From positions 558,001 through 622,000 of the forward strand of contig NZ_CP159218.1 in the NCBI RefSeq assembly GCF_040438885.1: 64,000 nt of DNA, in the 5' to 3' direction. The DNA comes from Nakamurella sp. A5-74 (GTDB lineage Bacteria; Actinomycetota; Actinomycetes; Mycobacteriales; Nakamurellaceae). A program made the translations under genes and the position numbers. Each line of letters starts with the position of its first letter. The first letter of the stretch is position 1. The notes beneath the pieces are model-generated. The model worked only from the letters and a program-made list of their open reading frames with translations, was not told the DNA's origin and did not search any database. Positions 1-8,534 of the stretch are shown piece by piece.

Positions 1-1752
1 CGGCTCCGGCGCGACCGGCAGGTACCTGTCCTGCGGGCCGTCGAAGACGGTCGACAGTCGGCCCAGCTGGCGGGGCCAGCTGTCGGCGTGCAGGACGTGG
101 ACCCGGTGCGAGCCGATGTCCGCGGTCAGTGCCTCGGCCAACACGTCGGGATGCGGGTGGGCCAGCGTGGTGGCGGCCGAATCGAAGGTCCCACCGCCGG
201 TGTGCAGCTCGCCCAGCACGGGCGTGAACTCGCCGGCGAGCAACGCATCCAGCCCGTTCGCGGCGATCTGCAGATCGGGCGAATGGATGTGGGCAGCGCG
301 CCACCGCAGCGGTAGCCGGGGGAAGAGCCTGTCCATCTCCGGCGCGAGGTCGGCGCTGGACAGCTCGATCGAGCCGGTCAGCCCGTCCTGTGGCTCCGCC
401 CCTGCGGTGCCCAGCAACTCCGCCCACCGGCCGGCGAACTCGTCCGTCTGGGACGCGACCAGGTTGTGCTCACCCCAGAGCAGACCCTGGGCCAGGAACA
501 GCAGGTCGGACAACGGCATCGGACGACCGTCACCCATCTCGTCGACCAGGTCCCCGAACGCCGCGGTGAAGGTCGCCTCCAGATGGGCGCACCACCAGTG
601 GGCAGCCTGCAGGAGCAGGCCCATCGGCGCCGCGATCCGCTCGACCAGCGCTGGACCGAAGCGGACGGCCAGGTCACGTGCGGTGTCCTCGTAGGCGAGC
701 TTGCGGCCGGCATAGGTCTCGCCAGGGCGTCGCTCCGTCACCTCCGAGACCTGTTGCCGGAACACCTCTTTCAGTGCGTTGTCCGCGGCGAGCACCGCGG
801 TCGGGTCGCCGGCGGCGGCGGCCAGGGCGGCCCGGGCGGTGTCCAGCGCGTCGAAGCGATGCAGTGCGGCTGCGCGGGCTGGTTCCGGCAGGGCCTGCAG
901 ATCGGCCAGCAGACGGTCGGCCACGTCGTGCACGTGACGGACGTCGAAACCGACGCTGAGCAGGCCGCGTTCGGTGAGCCGGCGCAGGGTGAGATCGGCG
1001 TCACCCGCCGTTCGGGCGGCGCCCGCGGCGACCGCGTCGACGACGAGAGCGCTCCGGGCGCGGCCGTCGGCGGCCTGCAGCAGCCACTGCTCCTGGGAGC
1101 TGAGCTGCAGCGGCTTGCCGGTGGCAGCACGCGCGGTGGCGGGTGAACCGGCTACCGGCGGGGTGAGGATCACGGACGACGGGATCCGCACCGGCAGATG
1201 TGGAGCCACCGCCGGGTCGGCGGCGATGGCTGAGGCCAACGCGTCCAGTGCCCAGTCCTCCAGCTTCGTCCAGCGGCGCGCGAGCAACCCGGAACCCGGT
1301 CGAGCCTGCACGGTCGGGCCGTCGTCGTCGATCCGGGCCCAGGTGGCGGGGCCGAAGAAGCCGATGCTCTCGTTCTTGCTGCAATACCGCTGCCAGTACC
1401 GGCCGACCGTCCGTACTCCCTGGTAGTAGCGGGAGTTCCGTGGCCCGTCCGGAACCACCCGTCCCAGGGCGTGGAAGACGTTCGGGTTCTGCCAGGCGAT
1501 GGCTTCGCGCAGCAGCGGATCGGTGGCGATCCGCTCGACGGTCGGCAGCTGCCGGTGCAGCGCCTCCTCGGCCAGCGCCTTCAGCTGCTGCGGTGTCGCT
1601 GCGGCCGCCAGCGCTGAGTCAACGGCCGCCGCCGCCGGAGCATCCTGGAGCTGCTGCAACCCCTCGACCGGGAAGCCGGCGCTGCGGATGATCACGTCGC
1701 GCCAGATCTCCCAGCCGGTCGAGCCGAGTGCGACGGTGTGCGGCGAGGTCAT
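1..1752 (-). CDS. LanB-like (lantibiotic dehydratase N-terminal type) protein, partial, runs off left edge
   Basis: An uninterrupted minus-strand reading frame of 584 codons starts at ATG 1752 and is still open at base 1. The product begins MTSPHTVALGSTGWEIWRDV. Around residues 108-140 it has the run RYYQGVRTVGRYWQRY followed by KNESIGFFGP, which I align with the TPFGLFxG segment of LanB glutamylation domains. Later hydrophobic/acidic helical segments also fit that fold. LanB proteins transfer an activated amino acid from aminoacyl-tRNA to a peptide side chain or C-terminus. The C-terminal part lies outside the window, so presence of an elimination domain cannot be judged. The start codon overlaps the stop of the upstream thioesterase-PPTase gene (ATGA), so it belongs to the same operon as the NRPS and ketosynthase genes. 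The family call is fairly secure. The exact reaction (dehydration versus peptide aminoacylation) is unknown. Confidence 0.72.
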   Translation of the reverse strand, partial: MTSPHTVALGSTGWEIWRDVIIRSAGFPVEGLQQLQDAPAAAAVDSALAAAATPQQLKALAEEALHRQLPTVERIATDPLLREAIAWQNPNVFHALGRVVPDGPRNSRYYQGVRTVGRYWQRYCSKNESIGFFGPATWARIDDDGPTVQARPGSGLLARRWTKLEDWALDALASAIAADPAVAPHLPVRIPSSVILTPPVAGSPATARAATGKPLQLSSQEQWLLQAADGRARSALVVDAVAAGAARTAGDADLTLRRLTERGLLSVGFDVRHVHDVADRLLADLQALPEPARAAALHRFDALDTARAALAAAAGDPTAVLAADNALKEVFRQQVSEVTERRPGETYAGRKLAYEDTARDLAVRFGPALVERIAAPMGLLLQAAHWWCAHLEATFTAAFGDLVDEMGDGRPMPLSDLLFLAQGLLWGEHNLVASQTDEFAGRWAELLGTAGAEPQDGLTGSIELSSADLAPEMDRLFPRLPLRWRAAHIHSPDLQIAANGLDALLAGEFTPVLGELHTGGGTFDSAATTLAHPHPDVLAEALTADIGSHRVHVLHADSWPRQLGRLSTVFDGPQDRYLPVAPEP

Positions 1753-3266
1753 CGGCGTTCTCCTGTTCGTTCGTCGGCTGACGCGGCCCACTCGTCGGCA
1801 GACCAGTCGTGGAACATGTGCTCGGTCGCCAGTGCGCCAGGACCCGTCCGGAGCTGCACCACGACCACCTCAGGAGCCGGAACCCGCAGTCCTGCAGGGA
1901 CACTCGTGACCTGCAGGACGGCCGGCTGTCGATGGTCGTCGGCGCCGATGATGCCGGCGTGCTGGTCCTGTTGTTGCAGGCCCAACGAGGTGGGCTCGAC
2001 GGTCAGTCCTTGACCGGTGCACTTCAGCACGGCCTCCTTGGCGGTCCAGGCGCGCAGCAGCTCGCGGCTGCGCCACTGCTCGGGGACGTCGGCCAACCTG
2101 ATCAACTCATCGGGGTGCAGGATCGACGCGGCCAGCTGCGTCGTGTCCGGCAGCGAGTGCTCGGTCTCGTGGTCGACGCCCAGTGGCGTGGCCGCCACGG
2201 CGAGCAGCAGCCGACCGTCGCGGTGACTCCAGCTCACCTGCGGCCCATCGTGAAGCTCCGGCTTGCCGTTGACGCCGGTCGGGAAGGGCGCCCGTGAATA
2301 CCGGGATCCGAAGCGGGACAACACCTCGCGGGCGATGCCGCGTCGTGCGGTGAACCGGCGGGAGTCCCGTTGGTCGACGAATCGCGCCGCTCGGTCGTGT
2401 TCCTCGGGGGCGAGCTGATCGGCGAGACCGGCCAGCTCCCGGTCGTCGATCGTGTCCAGATCGGCGAGTACCAGGTGCACCTCTCCGGGTCGGACGGCGC
2501 TCGCGGGTGCGACGGTGTCGGCTGCCTCGGCGCGCAGCAGACCCCCGAGCAGCCCGAACTGCTCGTGCAGGAAGAAGTGGCCTCCCGGCATGGTCCTGAG
2601 CCGGAACCCGGGCGCGCTGTGACGTGCCCAGCCGATGCCTGTCCACGGTAGGCACACCCCGTCGCGGCGCCCGCACACCGCCGTGACCGGGACCGGCAGC
2701 GCAGGGCCGGGTTCCCAGCGGTAATCGTCGATCCAGGTGAAGTCGGCGCGGATCGCCGGCAGCAGCAACTCGATCAGCTCCGCTGAGTCGAGCACCTCCT
2801 GCGGCATCCCGCCCAGCCGCGCCAGCCGGGTGATCATCTCCTCGTCGCTGCGGCGGGACAGGTCCTTGAGATCACCGTCCAGGCGCAGGTCGGGGGGCGG
2901 GCTGCCGCCGATCACCAGGCGTCGCGGCAGCGGTCCGCCGGTGGCGGCCAGCGAGCGTACGGTCTCGTAGCCCAGCCGGGCTCCCATCGAATGGCCGTAG
3001 ATGAGGTAGTCGCCGGTGACGGTCTCGCTGATGGCGGCGGCCAGGGCGGCGGGATCGATCACCGGCTCCTCCGCCCAGCGGCTCTCCCGCCCGGGTAGCT
3101 GGACGGGGCGGATGTCGACCTGCGGAGCGAAGGCCTCGGCCCAGCCGCGGAATGCGCTGGCGCCGCCGCCTGCGTAGGGCAGGCAGAGCACCGGAACAGC
3201 ATCGGCGGCGAGGGCCGGGGTGCGCACCGGACGGGCGAACCAGGTGGTGGCCGTTCCTGCGGTCAT
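1749..3266 (-). CDS. Type II thioesterase fused to Sfp-type 4'-phosphopantetheinyl transferase
   Basis: 505 residues from ATG 3266, which overlaps the stop of the ketosynthase gene. Residues about 20-245 form a GrsT-like alpha/beta hydrolase: YAGGGASAFRGW, nucleophile motif GHSMGA with Ser93, and GGHFFL with catalytic His230. Residues about 260-460 form a phosphopantetheinyl transferase: metal-binding GVDHE (D365/E367) and WTAKEAVLKCTGQG (K410, E411, K415). The first domain would remove wrongly loaded acyl groups or release product from carrier proteins. The second would attach phosphopantetheine to the carrier domain encoded two genes upstream. Both activities are commonly separate proteins, so the fusion is notable, and both active sites look complete. 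A longer in-frame extension upstream of 3266 exists but lies inside the ketosynthase gene and is rejected. Confidence 0.9.
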   Translation of the reverse strand: MTAGTATTWFARPVRTPALAADAVPVLCLPYAGGGASAFRGWAEAFAPQVDIRPVQLPGRESRWAEEPVIDPAALAAAISETVTGDYLIYGHSMGARLGYETVRSLAATGGPLPRRLVIGGSPPPDLRLDGDLKDLSRRSDEEMITRLARLGGMPQEVLDSAELIELLLPAIRADFTWIDDYRWEPGPALPVPVTAVCGRRDGVCLPWTGIGWARHSAPGFRLRTMPGGHFFLHEQFGLLGGLLRAEAADTVAPASAVRPGEVHLVLADLDTIDDRELAGLADQLAPEEHDRAARFVDQRDSRRFTARRGIAREVLSRFGSRYSRAPFPTGVNGKPELHDGPQVSWSHRDGRLLLAVAATPLGVDHETEHSLPDTTQLAASILHPDELIRLADVPEQWRSRELLRAWTAKEAVLKCTGQGLTVEPTSLGLQQQDQHAGIIGADDHRQPAVLQVTSVPAGLRVPAPEVVVVQLRTGPGALATEHMFHDWSADEWAASADERTGERR

Positions 3267-5023
3267 GCCGCACCGCCGGCGTCGATCAGTGGCTGCAGGA
3301 CCGAGGTCGGACCGGGGATCCGGATGCGTCGATATGGGTGCGCGGGAAGCGGTACCCGTTGTGGCCCTGCGGATTGCGCGGGCATCGTCGGGAGTGTGTG
3401 ATCGAGCGCCGGCGCCGGGTCGTTCGCCACGGCCCGCAGCTGCGCCACTGCTTCGTCGACCGACCGGGACCACACGACATGGGTGCACGCGTGGACCCGA
3501 CGGCCGGTGAGCAGGGTGCGGGACACAGCAGTCAGAGCGGGTCGGTGGCGCTCCAGGTGCTCCGCGAGCCGGCCGGCGAACAGTCGCAGGTCGGCGGCGG
3601 TCCTGGTGCTGAGCAACAGCGGAACCGGCTCGTCGAGGACCGCCGCCGCCCACTCCTCGTCCGTCGGCAGCGCCGAGGCCTCGATCACCAGATGGACGTT
3701 CGTCCCGCCCACTCCGAAGGAGCTGACTCCCGCCAGCCGGCGGAGGTCCGATGGCCAGGCGGCGTCACCGGCCTGCGCGGTCAGCCCGCTGCCGTCCAGC
3801 TCCAGCAGCGCGCCCGGGGTGCTGAAATGAAGGTTCCCGGGAACGGTTCCGGCCCTTGCGGCCAGGATCGCGAGCTGCAGCGCTGCAATTCCCGACGCCA
3901 CATCCAGGTTGCCCAGGTGCGTCTTGGGGGCCACCAGTGCGGTCCGCGCCGGACGGTCGGCGGACGCCCAGACCCGCCGGAGTGCGCCCACTTCGATCGC
4001 ATCTCCGAGTGGCGTACCGAGGGCATGGCAGAAGACCGCACCGATCTCACCGGGCCCGACCTGGGCCGCGGCCTGTGCCTGGTCGACGGCTGCCTGCTGA
4101 CCGGCGATCCCCGGGGCGGCGAAACCCGCCCTCGCCGCACCGTCATTGGTCATGGCGTAGCCACGGATGACGGCCAGCACCGGGTCGCCGTCGTCCACCG
4201 CGTCCTGGTGGCGCTTGAGCACCACCACACCGGCGCCGCTGGACATCCCGGCCCCGTCGGCGTCCGCCGACAGGGCGCGGCAGCGTCCGTCGGCGGAGGT
4301 GGTTCCCGGCCCGCGTCGCAGGTAGCGGGGACTGGTGAGATGTACGCCGCCGGCGACGGCGACGTCGCACTGCAGATCGATCAGCGCGGTCGCCGCCGTG
4401 CATACCGCGGCCAGCGAACCCGCACAGGTGGCCGCCACTGCCATCGCCGGACCGTCGAGCCCGAGCTTGTACGCCACCCGACTGACCATGTGGTCCGCGC
4501 CGATCCCGGTGGGCAGCAACGTGTCCCAGCTGGCATCGATGAGCCGCAGCAGCGGCAGCAACTCCTCGAGGTGGTGTCGGTTCGGGCCGGCGGCGGCGAA
4601 CACGCCGACGACGACCGCCGGGTCCCGGACTCCGAGGCCGGCGTTCTGCAGTGCGCTCTCGACGATCTCGAGGAAGATCCGGTGCTGCGGATCCATCAGC
4701 GCCAGCTCGGCGAGATCGATCCCGAACTGGTCGGCATCGAAGCAGTCGACGTCCTCCAGTTGCCCCCCTGCGCGCACCAGGTCGCTCCTGGACAGCAGGC
4801 TCACCGGAACTGCCAGTGCCCGCAACGCGGCGTCGTCGAGGTCGCGGATCACGTCGCGGCGGGCGATCACGTTGTCCCACAGGCTGTCCAGATCAGGCGA
4901 TCCCGGATAGCGGCCGGCCATCCCGATCACGGCGATGTCCGTGGCACTGATCTCGGGAGCGTCGACATCTGAGGAAGGACGCTCCGGCCGCTCCTCGTCG
5001 AGAAGGTGCTGCAGCGCGGTCAT
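3263..5023 (-). CDS. Stand-alone ketosynthase (polyketide type) lacking AT domain, altered active site
   Basis: 586 residues from ATG 5023, overlapping the NRPS stop (ATGA). Residues about 28-455 are a beta-ketoacyl synthase: IAVIGMAGRYPGSPDLDSLW at the start, MDPQHRIFLE, nucleophile Cys200 in ATCAGSL, first His333 in CHALGTPLGDAIE, and GVSSFGVGGTNVHLV. The KTNxGH loop reads KTHLGN (H369, N372), so the second catalytic His is replaced by Asn and the adjacent Asn by His. After the KS there is a piece of KS-AT linker (PLLLSTRTAADLR) and a post-AT-like tail (VPLPAHPYRR), but the acyltransferase domain between them is missing. The KS may accept the aminoacyl or peptidyl thioester from the NRPS and either extend it using an AT in trans or simply pass it on. 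A KS0-like, non-elongating role is plausible. Confidence 0.88.
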   Translation of the reverse strand: MTALQHLLDEERPERPSSDVDAPEISATDIAVIGMAGRYPGSPDLDSLWDNVIARRDVIRDLDDAALRALAVPVSLLSRSDLVRAGGQLEDVDCFDADQFGIDLAELALMDPQHRIFLEIVESALQNAGLGVRDPAVVVGVFAAAGPNRHHLEELLPLLRLIDASWDTLLPTGIGADHMVSRVAYKLGLDGPAMAVAATCAGSLAAVCTAATALIDLQCDVAVAGGVHLTSPRYLRRGPGTTSADGRCRALSADADGAGMSSGAGVVVLKRHQDAVDDGDPVLAVIRGYAMTNDGAARAGFAAPGIAGQQAAVDQAQAAAQVGPGEIGAVFCHALGTPLGDAIEVGALRRVWASADRPARTALVAPKTHLGNLDVASGIAALQLAILAARAGTVPGNLHFSTPGALLELDGSGLTAQAGDAAWPSDLRRLAGVSSFGVGGTNVHLVIEASALPTDEEWAAAVLDEPVPLLLSTRTAADLRLFAGRLAEHLERHRPALTAVSRTLLTGRRVHACTHVVWSRSVDEAVAQLRAVANDPAPALDHTLPTMPAQSAGPQRVPLPAHPYRRIRIPGPTSVLQPLIDAGGAA

Positions 5024-7017
5024 CGGCCGCCCCTGGGTGGTACCCGCGCGGCACGACGTCCGGCGCGCGGAGCGGCCGGGCGTGTCGCCGCGCGCGTGGC
5101 CGGTGGTGTGGCGCCGGCGGAACCGGCAGCCACGCTCGCATCCGGGCCCAGGGTTCCGCTGGGCCGGTCGAGATGTCCGGCGATGGCCGTCACCGAGCCG
5201 AGACCGAACAGCTCCACCAGCTGGATCTCCCCCCAACTGCTGAGGGCGGCGTGGATTCGGACCAGGTCCAGGGAGTGGGCCCCGGACTCCAACAGCGGCA
5301 ACCGCGGATCGATACTCGTCGCCTCGATGCCGAGCACGTCGGCCACCGTGCGGCGCACTCGATCCAGGAGGGTATCCGCCGACCGATCGGCCGGGGTCGG
5401 GTCGACCGCATCGATGGTCTGCGGCCGTACCCGCTTGCCGGTGTCGGTCACGTCCAGCCGTTCGACGATGTCGAACCGGCTGGGCACCATCGCGGCGGGC
5501 AGCTGGGCGGACAGCCGACGGTGCAGCTCGGCGGTGGAGAGCACCACGGCGGCTCCGACGGTCAGTTGGGCGACGAGGGCCTGGTGCTCGGCGCCCGTGA
5601 TCGACCCGGTACCGGCATCTGCCGGTCCGACGAGCGCTCCGGTCACGCCGGGAACGTCCAGCAGGATCGCCTCCACCTCGGCCGGGTCGATGCGGATACC
5701 CCGCACCTTGATCTGACGGTCCAGCCGTCCGCGGTGATACAGCAGGCCGTCGATCCGCTCGCCGAGATCCCCGGTGCGGAAGGTGCGTCGCCCACCCGGG
5801 GCATCGCCGAAGCGGGCCTCCTCGCTCGCGGGTGCGGCGCTGTCCGGGAGGTAGCCGAGAGCGACGCCGCGACCCGTCACCAGGATCTCCCCCGTTGCGT
5901 CCACCTCGACGGTGAAGCCGGGCAACGGCTGTCCCATCGGCAACGGCGAACCCGGGCCGCCGGCCGGCTCGACGGTGCTGCGGGGTTCCCGGACCCCGTG
6001 CGTGACGAACATCGTGCTGAACGACGCCTCGGTGGATCCGTATCCGCTGGCGATCGTCACAGCGGAGCCGAAGAGTGTGCGGGCCACCTCGACGTCGCGG
6101 CGGACGGCAGCTTCACCGCCCAACAGCACGGTGTGCACCGAGCCGTCGACCCGGTCACCGAGCAGACCGAGCGTCCGCAACACGGTCGGGGCACAGTGGA
6201 ACACCGTCACCCCGTGTCGGATGAGGAAGCCGTCGAGTCCGGTCAGGCCCCGGGTGGCCAGATCGTAGGGAGCGACGGCGGCCCCGTTGAGCAGCGCCGA
6301 CCACAGGTCGACGGCTGCCATGTCGTAGCAGAACGGTGTGAGCAGGGTGAGCACGTCGCTCGGTCGCAGCTGCAGCGCCGTCCGCTGGTTGTCGGCGCAG
6401 ACGAGCACCCCGCGATGCGACTGCTGCACGGCCTTCGGGATCCCGGTCGATCCCGAGGTGAACAACAGGTAGGCGACTGCGTCCGGGTCCGTCGAGGTGG
6501 GGGCGGCATCCGCGCTGCCTGCGTCGGTGGGCTCGTCCGGGCGGGTGCCGGCGTGGGCGTCGATGTCGATCACCAGCGGCACCGCTGCCGACCGCACCTT
6601 GTCGGCCGTCACCGCGGTGACCAGCACCGCGAGCGGGCGGGCAGCGCGGCAGCAGGAGTCGATGCGTGCACTCGGCCATCGAGGATCCAGCACCAGGTAG
6701 CTGAATCCGGCCCGCAGGACCGAGAGGATGGCGATGACGCTCGCCTCGCCGTGCGGGGCCAACACCGCGACCACGCGCTGCTGCGCAGTGTCCGGTGGGA
6801 CCGGCACCTCGAGCTGGAGGATCCGAGCCAGTCCGGCCGCCTGCTCGTCGAGCCGCCCACGGGTGAGGGTGCCGCTGTCGGAGACGACCGCCGGGGCGTC
6901 GCGGTCGGCGTCGACCAGCGCCGACCACCGGCTGATCACCGTGCAGGGGTGCGCCGTCGACTCGCAGCCGACCAGTGGTCGGTGCTCCTCGGGCAGGCGT
7001 GAAGCGTCCGGCGACAT
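5020..7017 (-). CDS. NRPS module: adenylation domain plus carrier domain (A-T)
   Basis: 665 residues. I place the start at ATG 7017 because AGGAG lies seven bases upstream; a longer start at 7143 has no visible site. Adenylation core motifs occur in order: LLFTSGSTGIPKAVQQ (A3, about residues 184-199), FCYDMAAVDLW (A4), GYGSTEASF (A5), RTGDLG (A7), GRLDRQIKVRGIRIDPAEVE (A8) and DTGKRVR (A10, Lys). A carrier domain follows with GAHSLDL, phosphopantetheine Ser near residue 582, then an Ala/Pro/Arg-rich tail that may be a docking linker. There is no condensation domain. The protein activates an amino acid as AMP ester and loads it on its own carrier, probably as the first unit of a line whose next station is the coupled ketosynthase. 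Asp at the first pocket position fits an alpha-amino acid substrate. Confidence 0.92.
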   Translation of the reverse strand: MSPDASRLPEEHRPLVGCESTAHPCTVISRWSALVDADRDAPAVVSDSGTLTRGRLDEQAAGLARILQLEVPVPPDTAQQRVVAVLAPHGEASVIAILSVLRAGFSYLVLDPRWPSARIDSCCRAARPLAVLVTAVTADKVRSAAVPLVIDIDAHAGTRPDEPTDAGSADAAPTSTDPDAVAYLLFTSGSTGIPKAVQQSHRGVLVCADNQRTALQLRPSDVLTLLTPFCYDMAAVDLWSALLNGAAVAPYDLATRGLTGLDGFLIRHGVTVFHCAPTVLRTLGLLGDRVDGSVHTVLLGGEAAVRRDVEVARTLFGSAVTIASGYGSTEASFSTMFVTHGVREPRSTVEPAGGPGSPLPMGQPLPGFTVEVDATGEILVTGRGVALGYLPDSAAPASEEARFGDAPGGRRTFRTGDLGERIDGLLYHRGRLDRQIKVRGIRIDPAEVEAILLDVPGVTGALVGPADAGTGSITGAEHQALVAQLTVGAAVVLSTAELHRRLSAQLPAAMVPSRFDIVERLDVTDTGKRVRPQTIDAVDPTPADRSADTLLDRVRRTVADVLGIEATSIDPRLPLLESGAHSLDLVRIHAALSSWGEIQLVELFGLGSVTAIAGHLDRPSGTLGPDASVAAGSAGATPPATRAATRPAAPRAGRRAARVPPRGGR

Positions 7018-7107
7018 GGGTGAGCTCCTGGCGTTCGCCGATCGGGGGTGGAGATCGGAGCGCGCCGACACGGGTTCGTCCGCCGACACACCACCGTGTC
7101 CGACAGT

Positions 7108-7206
7108 TCGCACCAACGGGGGACGGGGCGGAGTGTGTGACACTTCGCACCATCACTGACTGCGACAGGTTAGGTGAGTGTTGCGGGTGTGTCATCAGTT
7201 CGCAGG
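7108..7206. promoter_or_regulatory. Three TTCGCA-containing repeats in divergent promoter region
   Basis: TTCGCACCA occurs at 7108-7116 and 7144-7152, and TTCGCAGGA at 7199-7207. Each is preceded by a similar GTGTN2-4ACA/ATCA segment. They lie between the NRPS operon (minus) and the peptidase gene (plus), as expected for operator half-sites or regulator-binding repeats. Spacing is 36 and 55 bp, so they are not phased alike. Function is inferred only. Confidence 0.35.
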
Positions 7207-7319: not shown

Positions 7320-8534
7320 GTGCGGAACGTGCGGATTCATCGGCTGGTCCCGGCGGCGGTGGCGCTGCTCATGGTCATCACGAGTTGCAGCACGGATCAA
7401 CCGAGCGCGAACGACGCAGCGAAGGGGGTGTCGTCGCCGGGCGGGCCGGCGGAGAAGCCCCCGGCACCCGTACCGAGCCGCCCGGCGGTTACGTCGATGA
7501 GCGGCTCGGAGAGCGGCGGTGCACCGAGCAGCAGTGCGCCGAACAGTAGTGCGCCGAGCAGCAGTGCGCCGAGCAGCAGTGCGAACAGCGGTCCGTCGAG
7601 CACCGGCTCTGCTGTATCCGGCGCCGGCCCCTCCGCATCCGTGCCGATCGCGCTGCAGTCCGACGGGGCGGAGCTGGTCGCCGAGGTGGATCGCGGACGG
7701 TTGATGGCACACATCGAGACCATTGCTGTCGGACCCAGGGCGAACGTGGAGAACCATGCAGCGGCACTGGCAGCGGCGAACCATGCCGACCGGGCGTTCA
7801 CCGAGGCCGGTCTGCGGCCGAGTCGCACCGACGTGTCCGCTGTCGGGGTGACCCTGCCGGTCGTCTGGGTCGAGATCCCCGGGTCGGGCTGCCCCGCACC
7901 GGCCGCCACCCCCACTTATGTTCTGACGGCCCACTACGACACCGTGCCCGGAAGTCCCGGCGCCGACGACGACGCCAGCGGGGTCGCCGCGGTCCTGGAG
8001 ATCGCCCGGATCCTGGCGGGCCGTCCGCTGCGTGCGTCAGTGGTGCTCGCCGTGGTCCCGTTCGAGGAGCTGGGCGAGCAGTATCCGGGCGCCGCTGCCC
8101 TGGCCGAGCTGTTGGTGCAGGATCCGGGCCGCTCGGTGCAGGGGATGGTCAGCGCCGAGATGCTCGGCTATGCCACCCAACAGCGCGACAGTCAGGGCCT
8201 GCCGGGCGATTACCTGAACCTGTTGGCCTACGAAGGATCCGACGAGCTGGTGGCGGACTTCAGGTCAGCGGCCGCGCAGTGGGTCCCACACTTCGAGGTG
8301 CAGGCAGCGACGTTTCCGGCGGACACTGCGTTCATCAACCGTTCCGACAACGCGGCGTTCCAGGAACGGGGCGTTCCGTCGGCCTTCGCGAGCGACGGAG
8401 CGGATTTCCGGACGCCGTACTACCACTCGGAGCAGGACGTCCCGGCGGACATCTCGCAGGAGTTCCTCGTCGACTCCGCGCGCGTCCTGTTGGCCTGGCT
8501 CGTGCTGAGCGCGATGCGCGAGCCGACCTGCTGA
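7320..8534 (+). CDS. Secreted lipoprotein peptidase, M28 family
   Basis: 404 residues from GTG 7320; GTG 7329 is an alternative. The N-terminus is a lipoprotein signal (basic MRNVRIHR, hydrophobic core, lipobox VITSC), so the mature protein is probably anchored outside the membrane. A Ser/Ala/Pro-rich linker (about residues 35-105) follows, built partly from a 15-bp DNA repeat. The catalytic domain has co-catalytic zinc-peptidase motifs: LTAHYDTVPGSPGADDDASG (His and bridging Asp), VPFEELGEQ (general base and metal-ligand Glu), SAEMLG and YYHSEQD (last His ligand). Family members are aminopeptidases or carboxypeptidases that release single residues. It is transcribed divergently from the NRPS operon, so a link to product processing is possible but unproven. 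Confidence 0.9.
   Translation: MRNVRIHRLVPAAVALLMVITSCSTDQPSANDAAKGVSSPGGPAEKPPAPVPSRPAVTSMSGSESGGAPSSSAPNSSAPSSSAPSSSANSGPSSTGSAVSGAGPSASVPIALQSDGAELVAEVDRGRLMAHIETIAVGPRANVENHAAALAAANHADRAFTEAGLRPSRTDVSAVGVTLPVVWVEIPGSGCPAPAATPTYVLTAHYDTVPGSPGADDDASGVAAVLEIARILAGRPLRASVVLAVVPFEELGEQYPGAAALAELLVQDPGRSVQGMVSAEMLGYATQQRDSQGLPGDYLNLLAYEGSDELVADFRSAAAQWVPHFEVQAATFPADTAFINRSDNAAFQERGVPSAFASDGADFRTPYYHSEQDVPADISQEFLVDSARVLLAWLVLSAMREPTC
7521..7580 (+). repeat. 15-bp tandem repeat, four copies, coding
   Basis: Four in-frame 15-bp units (GCGCCGAGCAGCAGT and close variants) at 7521-7535, 7536-7550, 7551-7565 and 7566-7580 encode APSSS/APNSS in the linker of the M28 lipoprotein. Copy number could vary by slippage. 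Confidence 0.85.

Follow-up and report, generated by a model that had tools for sequence, protein, structure and literature searches.

About two thousand clusters of non-ribosomal peptide synthetase (NRPS) and polyketide synthase (PKS) genes carry LanB-like genes (PMC11212132). In the literature searched, one NRPS/PKS-associated LanB-like enzyme has a known role, and it is tied to ureido chain reversal: the threopeptin ligase SnaE acts on the carboxylate freed by a ureido-forming condensation domain (C_urea) with the motif EHHXXHDG (PMC11212132). Peptide aminoacyl-tRNA ligases (PEARLs) carry an E-x-R motif (Glu813/Arg815 of BhaB) at ATP and the carboxylate (PMC11962472), and none of their structures is solved, according to PMC12945691. 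Here we examine 64,000 nucleotides of Nakamurella sp. A5-74, referred to as the window (G000:C1:558001-622000, in a genome that is a single contig of 4.75 Mb). We consider it fairly probable that a single operon of 13 genes for a small NRPS-PKS product has its 5´ end in the window, and that it includes a second module that is loaded in trans and a PEARL-type ligase. The proposal is carried directly by the gene set, its reading frames and domains, the fold class of a relative of the ligase, the conservation of motifs and of the cluster, and the complementarity between A0-KS0 and an in-cis adenylation (A) domain.

About 30 kb to the left of the window were read, together with a further stretch for reading frames; negative numbers denote positions left of window base 1. 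The NRPS-PKS operon spans about 34 kb of the minus strand, of which 27 kb lie left of the window. Its first four genes occupy the window from 7017 to the left edge, joined by three 4-base ATGA overlaps, and nine further genes follow leftward on the same strand. Junctions throughout the operon overlap by 1-4 bases, except for a 103-base gap between g2 and g3 and the uncertain start of x5. The genes needed for the argument are these:

5020..7017, minus strand: A0-T0, adenylation-thiolation (A-T) didomain, first gene of the operon, 665 aa (PF00501 176 bits, PF00550 35 bits)
3263..5023, minus strand: KS0, stand-alone ketosynthase (KS), 586 aa (PF00109 and PF02801; no acyltransferase (AT), no acyl carrier protein (ACP))
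1749..3266, minus strand: fusion of thioesterase (TE) and phosphopantetheinyl transferase (PPTase), 505 aa (PF00975 at 25-236, ACPS PF01648 at 361-441; NF042922 under cut-off)
1752..-710, minus strand: LanB-like, PEARL-type ligase, 820 aa (PF04738 87.6 bits, cut-off 28)
-707..-4591, minus strand: g1, A-T-C-T, where C is a condensation domain (domain search; T1 by eye)

A sequence-only reading of the stretch had proposed that the A-T, AT-less KS, TE-PPTase and LanB-like genes are coupled, that the KS is altered, that TE and PPTase are fused, that the LanB-like enzyme is of the aminoacyl-tRNA type and that the remainder of the cluster lies to the left. All of this is borne out: the junctions and strand agree, the KS has PF00109/PF02801 only and a Cys-His-Asn triad, both TE-PPTase domains share one frame, the LanB-like protein combines PF04738 with E-x-R in the absence of PF14028, and the nine genes are there.

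In g1, no A domain stands ahead of the second T domain (T2). No C domain precedes A0-T0. The A0 pocket residues, taken from an alignment, are DMVHLGGFS, and the pocket is near-constant, since D[AML][PTVS]H[LVI]GGF is present in 72/72 rows (repeats of one cluster included). After ten row pairs that represented the same cluster met twice had been merged, 69 distinct clusters had a readable A1-C order. The A-T-C-T arrangement is found in 64 of them, and a KS0-type KS accompanies it in 61 and is not shown in three. Two of these three (L097, L078) are cut by contig starts; for the third, G721/L117, a 56% homolog lies on a different contig, the assembly being flagged as 10% contaminated. Four clusters instead have A-T-C-A-T (G710, G660, G667=L100 of Catelliglobosispora koreensis, G735a=L102), and no AT-less KS was found in them or in their 20 kb flanks. 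The best-scoring genome-wide matches to the KS0 query were 45%, 48%, 46% and 43%, respectively, in a search that is no proof of absence because its cut-off missed the divergent KS0 of a congener, G073. The in-cis A domain of the four clusters groups with 16 A0 domains as against 61 other A domains (SH-aLRT 95.9), and a smaller tree agrees. Judged by domain content and phylogeny, A0-T0 and KS0 look like a detached loader of the second module, which is a new proposal of this work.

KS0 itself departs from ordinary ketosynthases. Its triad is Cys-His-Asn by alignment, with KTHLGN in place of the usual KSNIGH and the unusual flanks TCAGSL and CHALGT. Among 67 KSs, Cys-His-Asn occurs in 21 (that of the window included), Cys-His-His in 45 and Cys-Asn-His in one. 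Asn is found in 19 of the 21 stand-alone KS0 proteins and Cys-His-His in 44 of the 46 fused to A-T; the KS of G058, counted among the 67 and among the 44, is the tree outgroup and not a true KS0, and L051 and L094 were excluded from the fusion label, their KS lying at a contig end. On the KS tree, His and Asn change only twice, while detachment from A-T happens three times, and by this tree the Asn state is old. In most species it does not resemble simple decay, because the context KTN-x-GNLDA is largely kept. Recent decay tied to detachment was also considered and dropped: the pair test had three pairs and was without power, and no correlated evolution is claimed. A KS devoid of the second His is expected to decarboxylate poorly, with acyl uptake and hand-over still possible. 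The triad of KS0 would fit acyl transfer better than malonyl condensation. There are precedents for unusual KS chemistry, as CalA3 is a KS with Cys-His-His that forms a C-N bond, and the KS of TAS1, with the same Cys-His-Asn, closes and releases tenuazonic acid (PMC4640141).

A LanB-like frame that broke off soon after the window edge as a degenerate gene would have spoken against the sequence-only reading; the frame proved complete, ending at -710 inside the ATGA chain. PF04738 is the sole Pfam domain of the protein, and the elimination domain PF14028 is absent from the protein and from the operon. No other PF04738 gene was found in the genome. A genome search for PF14028 had no match, but its controls gave no signal either. 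NCBIfam gave the protein no name, and a PDB sequence search with the ligase returned one chance-level row only. We rely on a structure model of a relative, L098 (AF2, 36-row alignment, pLDDT 92.7), which matches MibB, TbtB, GodF, MadB and NisB (Foldseek E 9e-21 to 4e-14; VIA Z 17.8-20.2), so that the modelled fold is that of LanB glutamylation enzymes. Matches to glutathione synthetase/ATP-grasp proteins are far weaker (Z 4.2-5.0), too weak alone and not decisive; such a signal is expected because PEARLs derive from ATP-grasp enzymes, if PMC11962472 is right. The VIA comparison of the model returned no PEARL structure. Residues 185-264 of the model resemble the winged-helix N-terminal domain of heterocyclases of ribosomally synthesized and post-translationally modified peptides (RiPPs; Z 5.2, rmsd 2.4, 77 residues). 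This region is kept without a known leader peptide, and might bind part of the assembly line.

Located by motif and position, without alignment to BhaB or TglB, E-x-R (as E[LF]R) stands near the C-terminus in 125 of 126 distinct ligase proteins, including that of the window (CELR); 121 were found by pattern and four (EFR) by eye. The sole miss is L094, with a scrambled C-terminus. All 126 have a Tyr-Trp-Gln-Arg-like motif, perhaps the CCA-/tRNA-binding helix, as we guess from its position. Because PF04738 stands alone, the relative has a LanB fold and E-x-R is kept in 125/126, the best reading of the LanB-like protein is a PEARL-type ligase. Addition of an amino acid to a small product would fit PEARL biology, the carboxylate likely belonging either to an acidic side chain or to a released acid. 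The operon contains no scaffold peptide for the ligase, and its gaps leave no room for the precursor gene that the sequence-only reading had recommended seeking, save for the 103 bases between g2 and g3. Because of this lack of room, and because the threopeptin pathway, itself NRPS/PKS plus PEARL (PMC11212132), is closer, the lymphostin/ammosamide parallel drawn earlier is not the best one.

Contrary to the possibility of a merely housekeeping left flank, the genes beyond g1 are biosynthetic. They were recognized by domain search and read as follows:

-4588..-10419, minus strand: g2, KS-AT-KR-DH-T, with ketoreductase (KR) and dehydratase (DH)
-10523..-12415, minus strand: g3, C-T
-12412..-18219, minus strand: g4, C-A-T-TE(Cys)-MFS, the last being a major facilitator superfamily part
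-18216..-21452, minus strand: x1, C-remnant-A-T-TE (C-remnant and TE by eye)
-21449..-22888, minus strand: x2, ASL-like lyase
-22885..-23883, minus strand: x3, GHMP kinase
-23883..-26231, minus strand: x4, fusion of an SbnA-like PLP synthase and ATP-grasp
about -26209..-27348, minus strand: x5, GntG/Thr aldolase-like (start uncertain)

The cis-AT module of g2 begins 4.6 kb beyond the left edge of the window. The trans-AT that the sequence-only reading had recommended seeking is therefore not needed, and the idea of a trans-AT cluster was rejected. The substrates of A domains are motif readings, with pockets read by alignment. That of the last module, in g4, is DVWHVSLID, which we take to be a serine pocket, and DIWQSTADD is presumably a diamino-acid pocket. 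The serine assignment agrees with PMC8698034, where the last module is called as Ser. The terminal TE of g4 has a Cys nucleophile (GHCGVGG), GHC is present in 6/6 relatives with a match, and this TE is among the best-conserved assembly-line domains in the relatives compared. In g4 (-18219 to -12412), an NRPS module, a Cys thioesterase and an MFS exporter are joined in one protein. In obafluorin and sulfazecin, the four-membered ring is closed by a Cys-TE (PMC11298585), so a serine beta-lactone is a possible product here. To judge by family names and known pathways, x2-x4 appear to act with x1 to provide a 2,3-diamino acid to g3, which has no A domain. Uridyl-peptide pathways offer a Thr-kinase/SbnA-like/ASL route to 2,3-diaminobutyrate. 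The ATP-grasp half of x4 and x2 match the two halves of the ATP-grasp/ASL fusion model NF002563, as if such a fusion had come apart and one of its halves had acquired a new partner, the PLP synthase. The TE part of the TE-PPTase protein carries a GHSMG serine. The same fusion occurs in G073, and no PPTase was matched beside the clusters of other genera compared, except for a lone one near the distant G705.

We infer every reaction, substrate and step order of the following pathway. A1-T1 of g1 would start the chain or carry its first residue, and the C domain of g1 would join this residue to the one on T2, which lacks an A domain of its own. The latter residue would be activated by A0 onto T0, picked up by the KS0 cysteine and handed to T2, so the KS0 step would be an acyl transfer, not a malonyl condensation. 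Subsequently, g2 would add a C2 unit and render it alpha,beta-unsaturated. The residue added by g3 would probably come from x1 and would likely be a 2,3-diamino acid produced by x2-x4, and g4 would add serine, release the chain via its cysteine thioesterase and export it via the fused MFS part. The LanB-like ligase would act on an intermediate or on the released product, phosphorylating a free carboxylate and joining it to aminoacyl-tRNA. The operon seems to combine three modes of amino-acid handling, namely by assembly line, by detached loading arm and by tRNA-using ligase. More tentatively, and with a confidence that stays somewhat short of even, we suggest that a KS has here turned into a carrier-to-carrier aminoacyl transferase, A0-T0-KS0 feeding an A-less module in trans with the decarboxylation His dispensable (roughly one third of the family has Asn there), and that a PEARL extends a non-ribosomal product at a carboxylate which does not arise from ureido chain reversal, in some relatives by two or three successive residues.

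Several points weigh against this pathway. The genome-wide KS0 search has the blind spot mentioned above, and the grouping of A0 with the in-cis A domains depends on two quickly built trees that have long branches. The four A-T-C-A-T clusters form one clade; complementarity is therefore one evolutionary event and one natural experiment. The last of the 69 clusters, G885b, was flagged as A-T-C-A-T with an AT-less KS but was excluded because it falls outside the family (ligase 35%, no TE0 match, neighbouring A 27-30%), and if kept, it would count as one case against complementarity. T0 would be a superfluous stop if A0 charges T2 directly. The Nakamurella KS0 sits on a long branch (1.52) with eroded flanks and might be decaying, and the fused KS0 proteins that keep Cys-His-His could still condense malonyl. 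Finally, the free carboxylate for the PEARL step is conjectural, and the aligned ligases are relatives, none of known activity.

Two other roles can be imagined for KS0. In a collinear scheme, A0-T0-KS0 would be the starter and first elongation, KS0 condensing the A0 residue with malonyl from the AT of g2 before g1 takes over. The cis-AT next door and the 44 of 46 A-T-fused KS0 proteins with Cys-His-His speak in its favour, as does the prediction x-pk-x-y-pk-asn-ser for a Micromonospora cluster of the same order (PMC8698034). We nevertheless regard it as rather unlikely: KS0 itself brings neither an AT nor an ACP, the window's KS0 and 20 others are Cys-His-Asn, and no KS0 was found where g1 retains its A domain, a domain that groups with A0. 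Alternatively, KS0 might release and cyclise a chain like the KS of fungal TAS1, which closes a tetramic acid and has in common with KS0 the triad and the A-T-KS order without AT or ACP (PMC4640141). Here the missing C domain ahead of A0-T0, the Cys-His-His of 45 of the 67 KS0 counted and the TE owned by the final module all disagree, and such a role is very unlikely.

The remaining alternatives concern the ligase. As in the threopeptin pathway, the C domain of g1 might make a ureido link and the PEARL extend the carboxylate freed by chain reversal; the gene content does parallel that of sna, with A-T-C-(A)-T, a PKS module, a TE and a PEARL (PMC11212132). The motifs of the three C domains in the operon, however, are FHHLVCDG, IHHAVADG and MHHIVTDG, and EHHXXHDG appears in 0/109 fetched stretches. 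In a separate reading of C motifs, those of L053 and L079 were wrong pattern matches and several others had no match. As a DNA pattern, EHHXXHDG has one match in the whole genome, in a 266-codon frame that resembles no C domain. The C domain of g1 belongs to a clade of 20 rows (19 g1 C domains and one labelled otherwise) with support 99, apart from the C_urea of G227b. We rejected ureido chain reversal because the motif is absent; the same scan does detect this C_urea, beside a distant LanB-like gene, through its EHHFVHDG. Chain reversal is probably not the answer here, and a threopeptin-type scheme as a whole is quite unlikely. This widespread family has the ligase, but its scanned stretches contain no ureido-forming domain, and it thus falls outside the published rule. 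L139/L140 (G227 contig 4, Micromonospora family), with a distant LanB-like gene and a C_urea EHHFVHDG, is a probable threopeptin-like cluster. That the LanB-like gene is vestigial, or a true RiPP dehydratase present in the operon by chance, is suggested by its Pfam name and by the winged-helix resemblance of the L098 model. We find this hardly credible in view of the intact frame within the ATGA chain, the same neighbours in most loci read with 1 to 3 copies, the absence of PF14028 from the protein and the chain's lack of room for a precursor outside the 103-base gap.

The gene set had seemed unrecognisable as a known one, and yet it recurs, with related assembly lines in a good number of actinobacteria. 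A ligase relative is present in 45/298 genomes of the window's order, including 2/17 genomes of its own genus in that set. In the Micromonospora family, 96/300 genomes have one at E 1e-100 with another family member as query, and ten of 394 genomes drawn from the class have one at E 1e-80, the window's own included. A scan of named genomes yielded 427 confirmed relatives, of which the best 80, corresponding to 76 named loci, were kept, so the counts over these 76 loci lean to close relatives. Beside the ligase, A1 was found in 65, the C domain of g1 in 63, the KS-AT of g2 in 64, a KS0-type KS in 60, TE0 in 59 and A0 in 57. All seven core features occur together in 49/76, many loci being cut by contig ends, and one orphan cluster of this kind is tabulated in PMC8698034. 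LanB-like stretches number one in 35 loci, two in 39 and three in two, and this copy number may set how many residues are added. L086 and L089 (Streptosporangium) have three consecutive LanB-like stretches before g1. The compact Micromonospora forms L118 and L120 comprise LanB-like, KS-AT-KR, C-A-T-TE(Cys)-MFS and another LanB-like gene on the opposite strand. In the congener G073, all genes but x5 show the same domain order, with A-T-KS on one frame and the TE-PPTase and PLP-ATP-grasp fusions, at identities of 75% for the PLP domain and the Cys-TE and 32-59% for other domains. The gene set is therefore not a product of chance.

Around the operon, the following was noted:

7096..7204, minus strand: operator-like repeat TGCGAASTG-N4/5-ACAC in three copies within the gap that precedes the operon, 3/5 exact matches genome-wide
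7320..8534, plus strand: M28 peptidase (PF04389), divergent from the operon, possible cluster neighbour

The repeats are likely a site for a regulator of the cluster; none was found in 56 kb of G073. A homolog of the peptidase (47%) adjoins the G073 cluster, after an extra ATP-grasp gene. Beyond x5 lies an ABC transporter gene in the opposite orientation.

No product for this cluster family was found in the open-access literature searched. The loader idea would explain why AT-less A-T-KS recurs and, if it is true, an amino-acid-moving KS would be useful for assembly-line engineering. The natural split and in-cis versions provide a built-in comparison. The serine-like last module together with the cysteine thioesterase suggests a reactive small product that is worth isolating.

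Compared with known systems, the closest characterised one found is the sna cluster for threopeptin of Stackebrandtia nassauensis (PMC11212132). Both combine NRPS, one PKS module, a stand-alone TE and a LanB-like gene, without a precursor peptide, in an actinobacterial host, and the A-T-C-A-T of sna corresponds to A-T-C-T plus detached A0 here. They differ in that sna has C_urea and an MbtH protein, for which no counterpart was found in the window's genome, whereas the genes listed for sna include no A-T-KS, DH-KR, diamino-acid genes or Cys-TE-MFS (PMC11212132). Among orphans, pks/nrps-3 of Micromonospora okii TP-A0468 reads A/T-KS/DH, A/T-C/T, KS/AT/KR/DH/ACP, C/A/T, C/Aser/T-Te (PMC8698034). 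Our locus L061 comes from this strain and, as far as it is visible, agrees in order, and we infer from strain and order, not from locus tags, that the two are one cluster; it differs from the window's by a fused A-T-KS, two LanB-like genes and a C-A-T module that keeps its A domain. The word lantibiotic is nowhere in the main text of PMC8698034. A Phytohabitans flavus cluster that comprises six NRPSs plus one PKS and has no known match (PMC7692728) may be the A-T-C-A-T version, although it was not matched by locus. TglB, AmmB2 and BhaB are likewise LanB-like with E-x-R for ATP, but they extend ribosomal scaffold peptides (PMC11962472, PMC12945691), of which this operon has none. The TAS1 KS and KS0 are both AT-less, follow A-T and have Cys-His-Asn; TAS1 is fungal, with C-A-T-KS in one protein whose KS cyclises and releases (PMC4640141), and KS0 is a gene of its own with no C before A0. 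Lastly, the TE of g4, compared through its Cys motif, would share with the TEs of ObiF and SulM, known for ring closure (PMC11298585), a Cys nucleophile that follows a residue bearing a beta-hydroxyl or a beta-amine.

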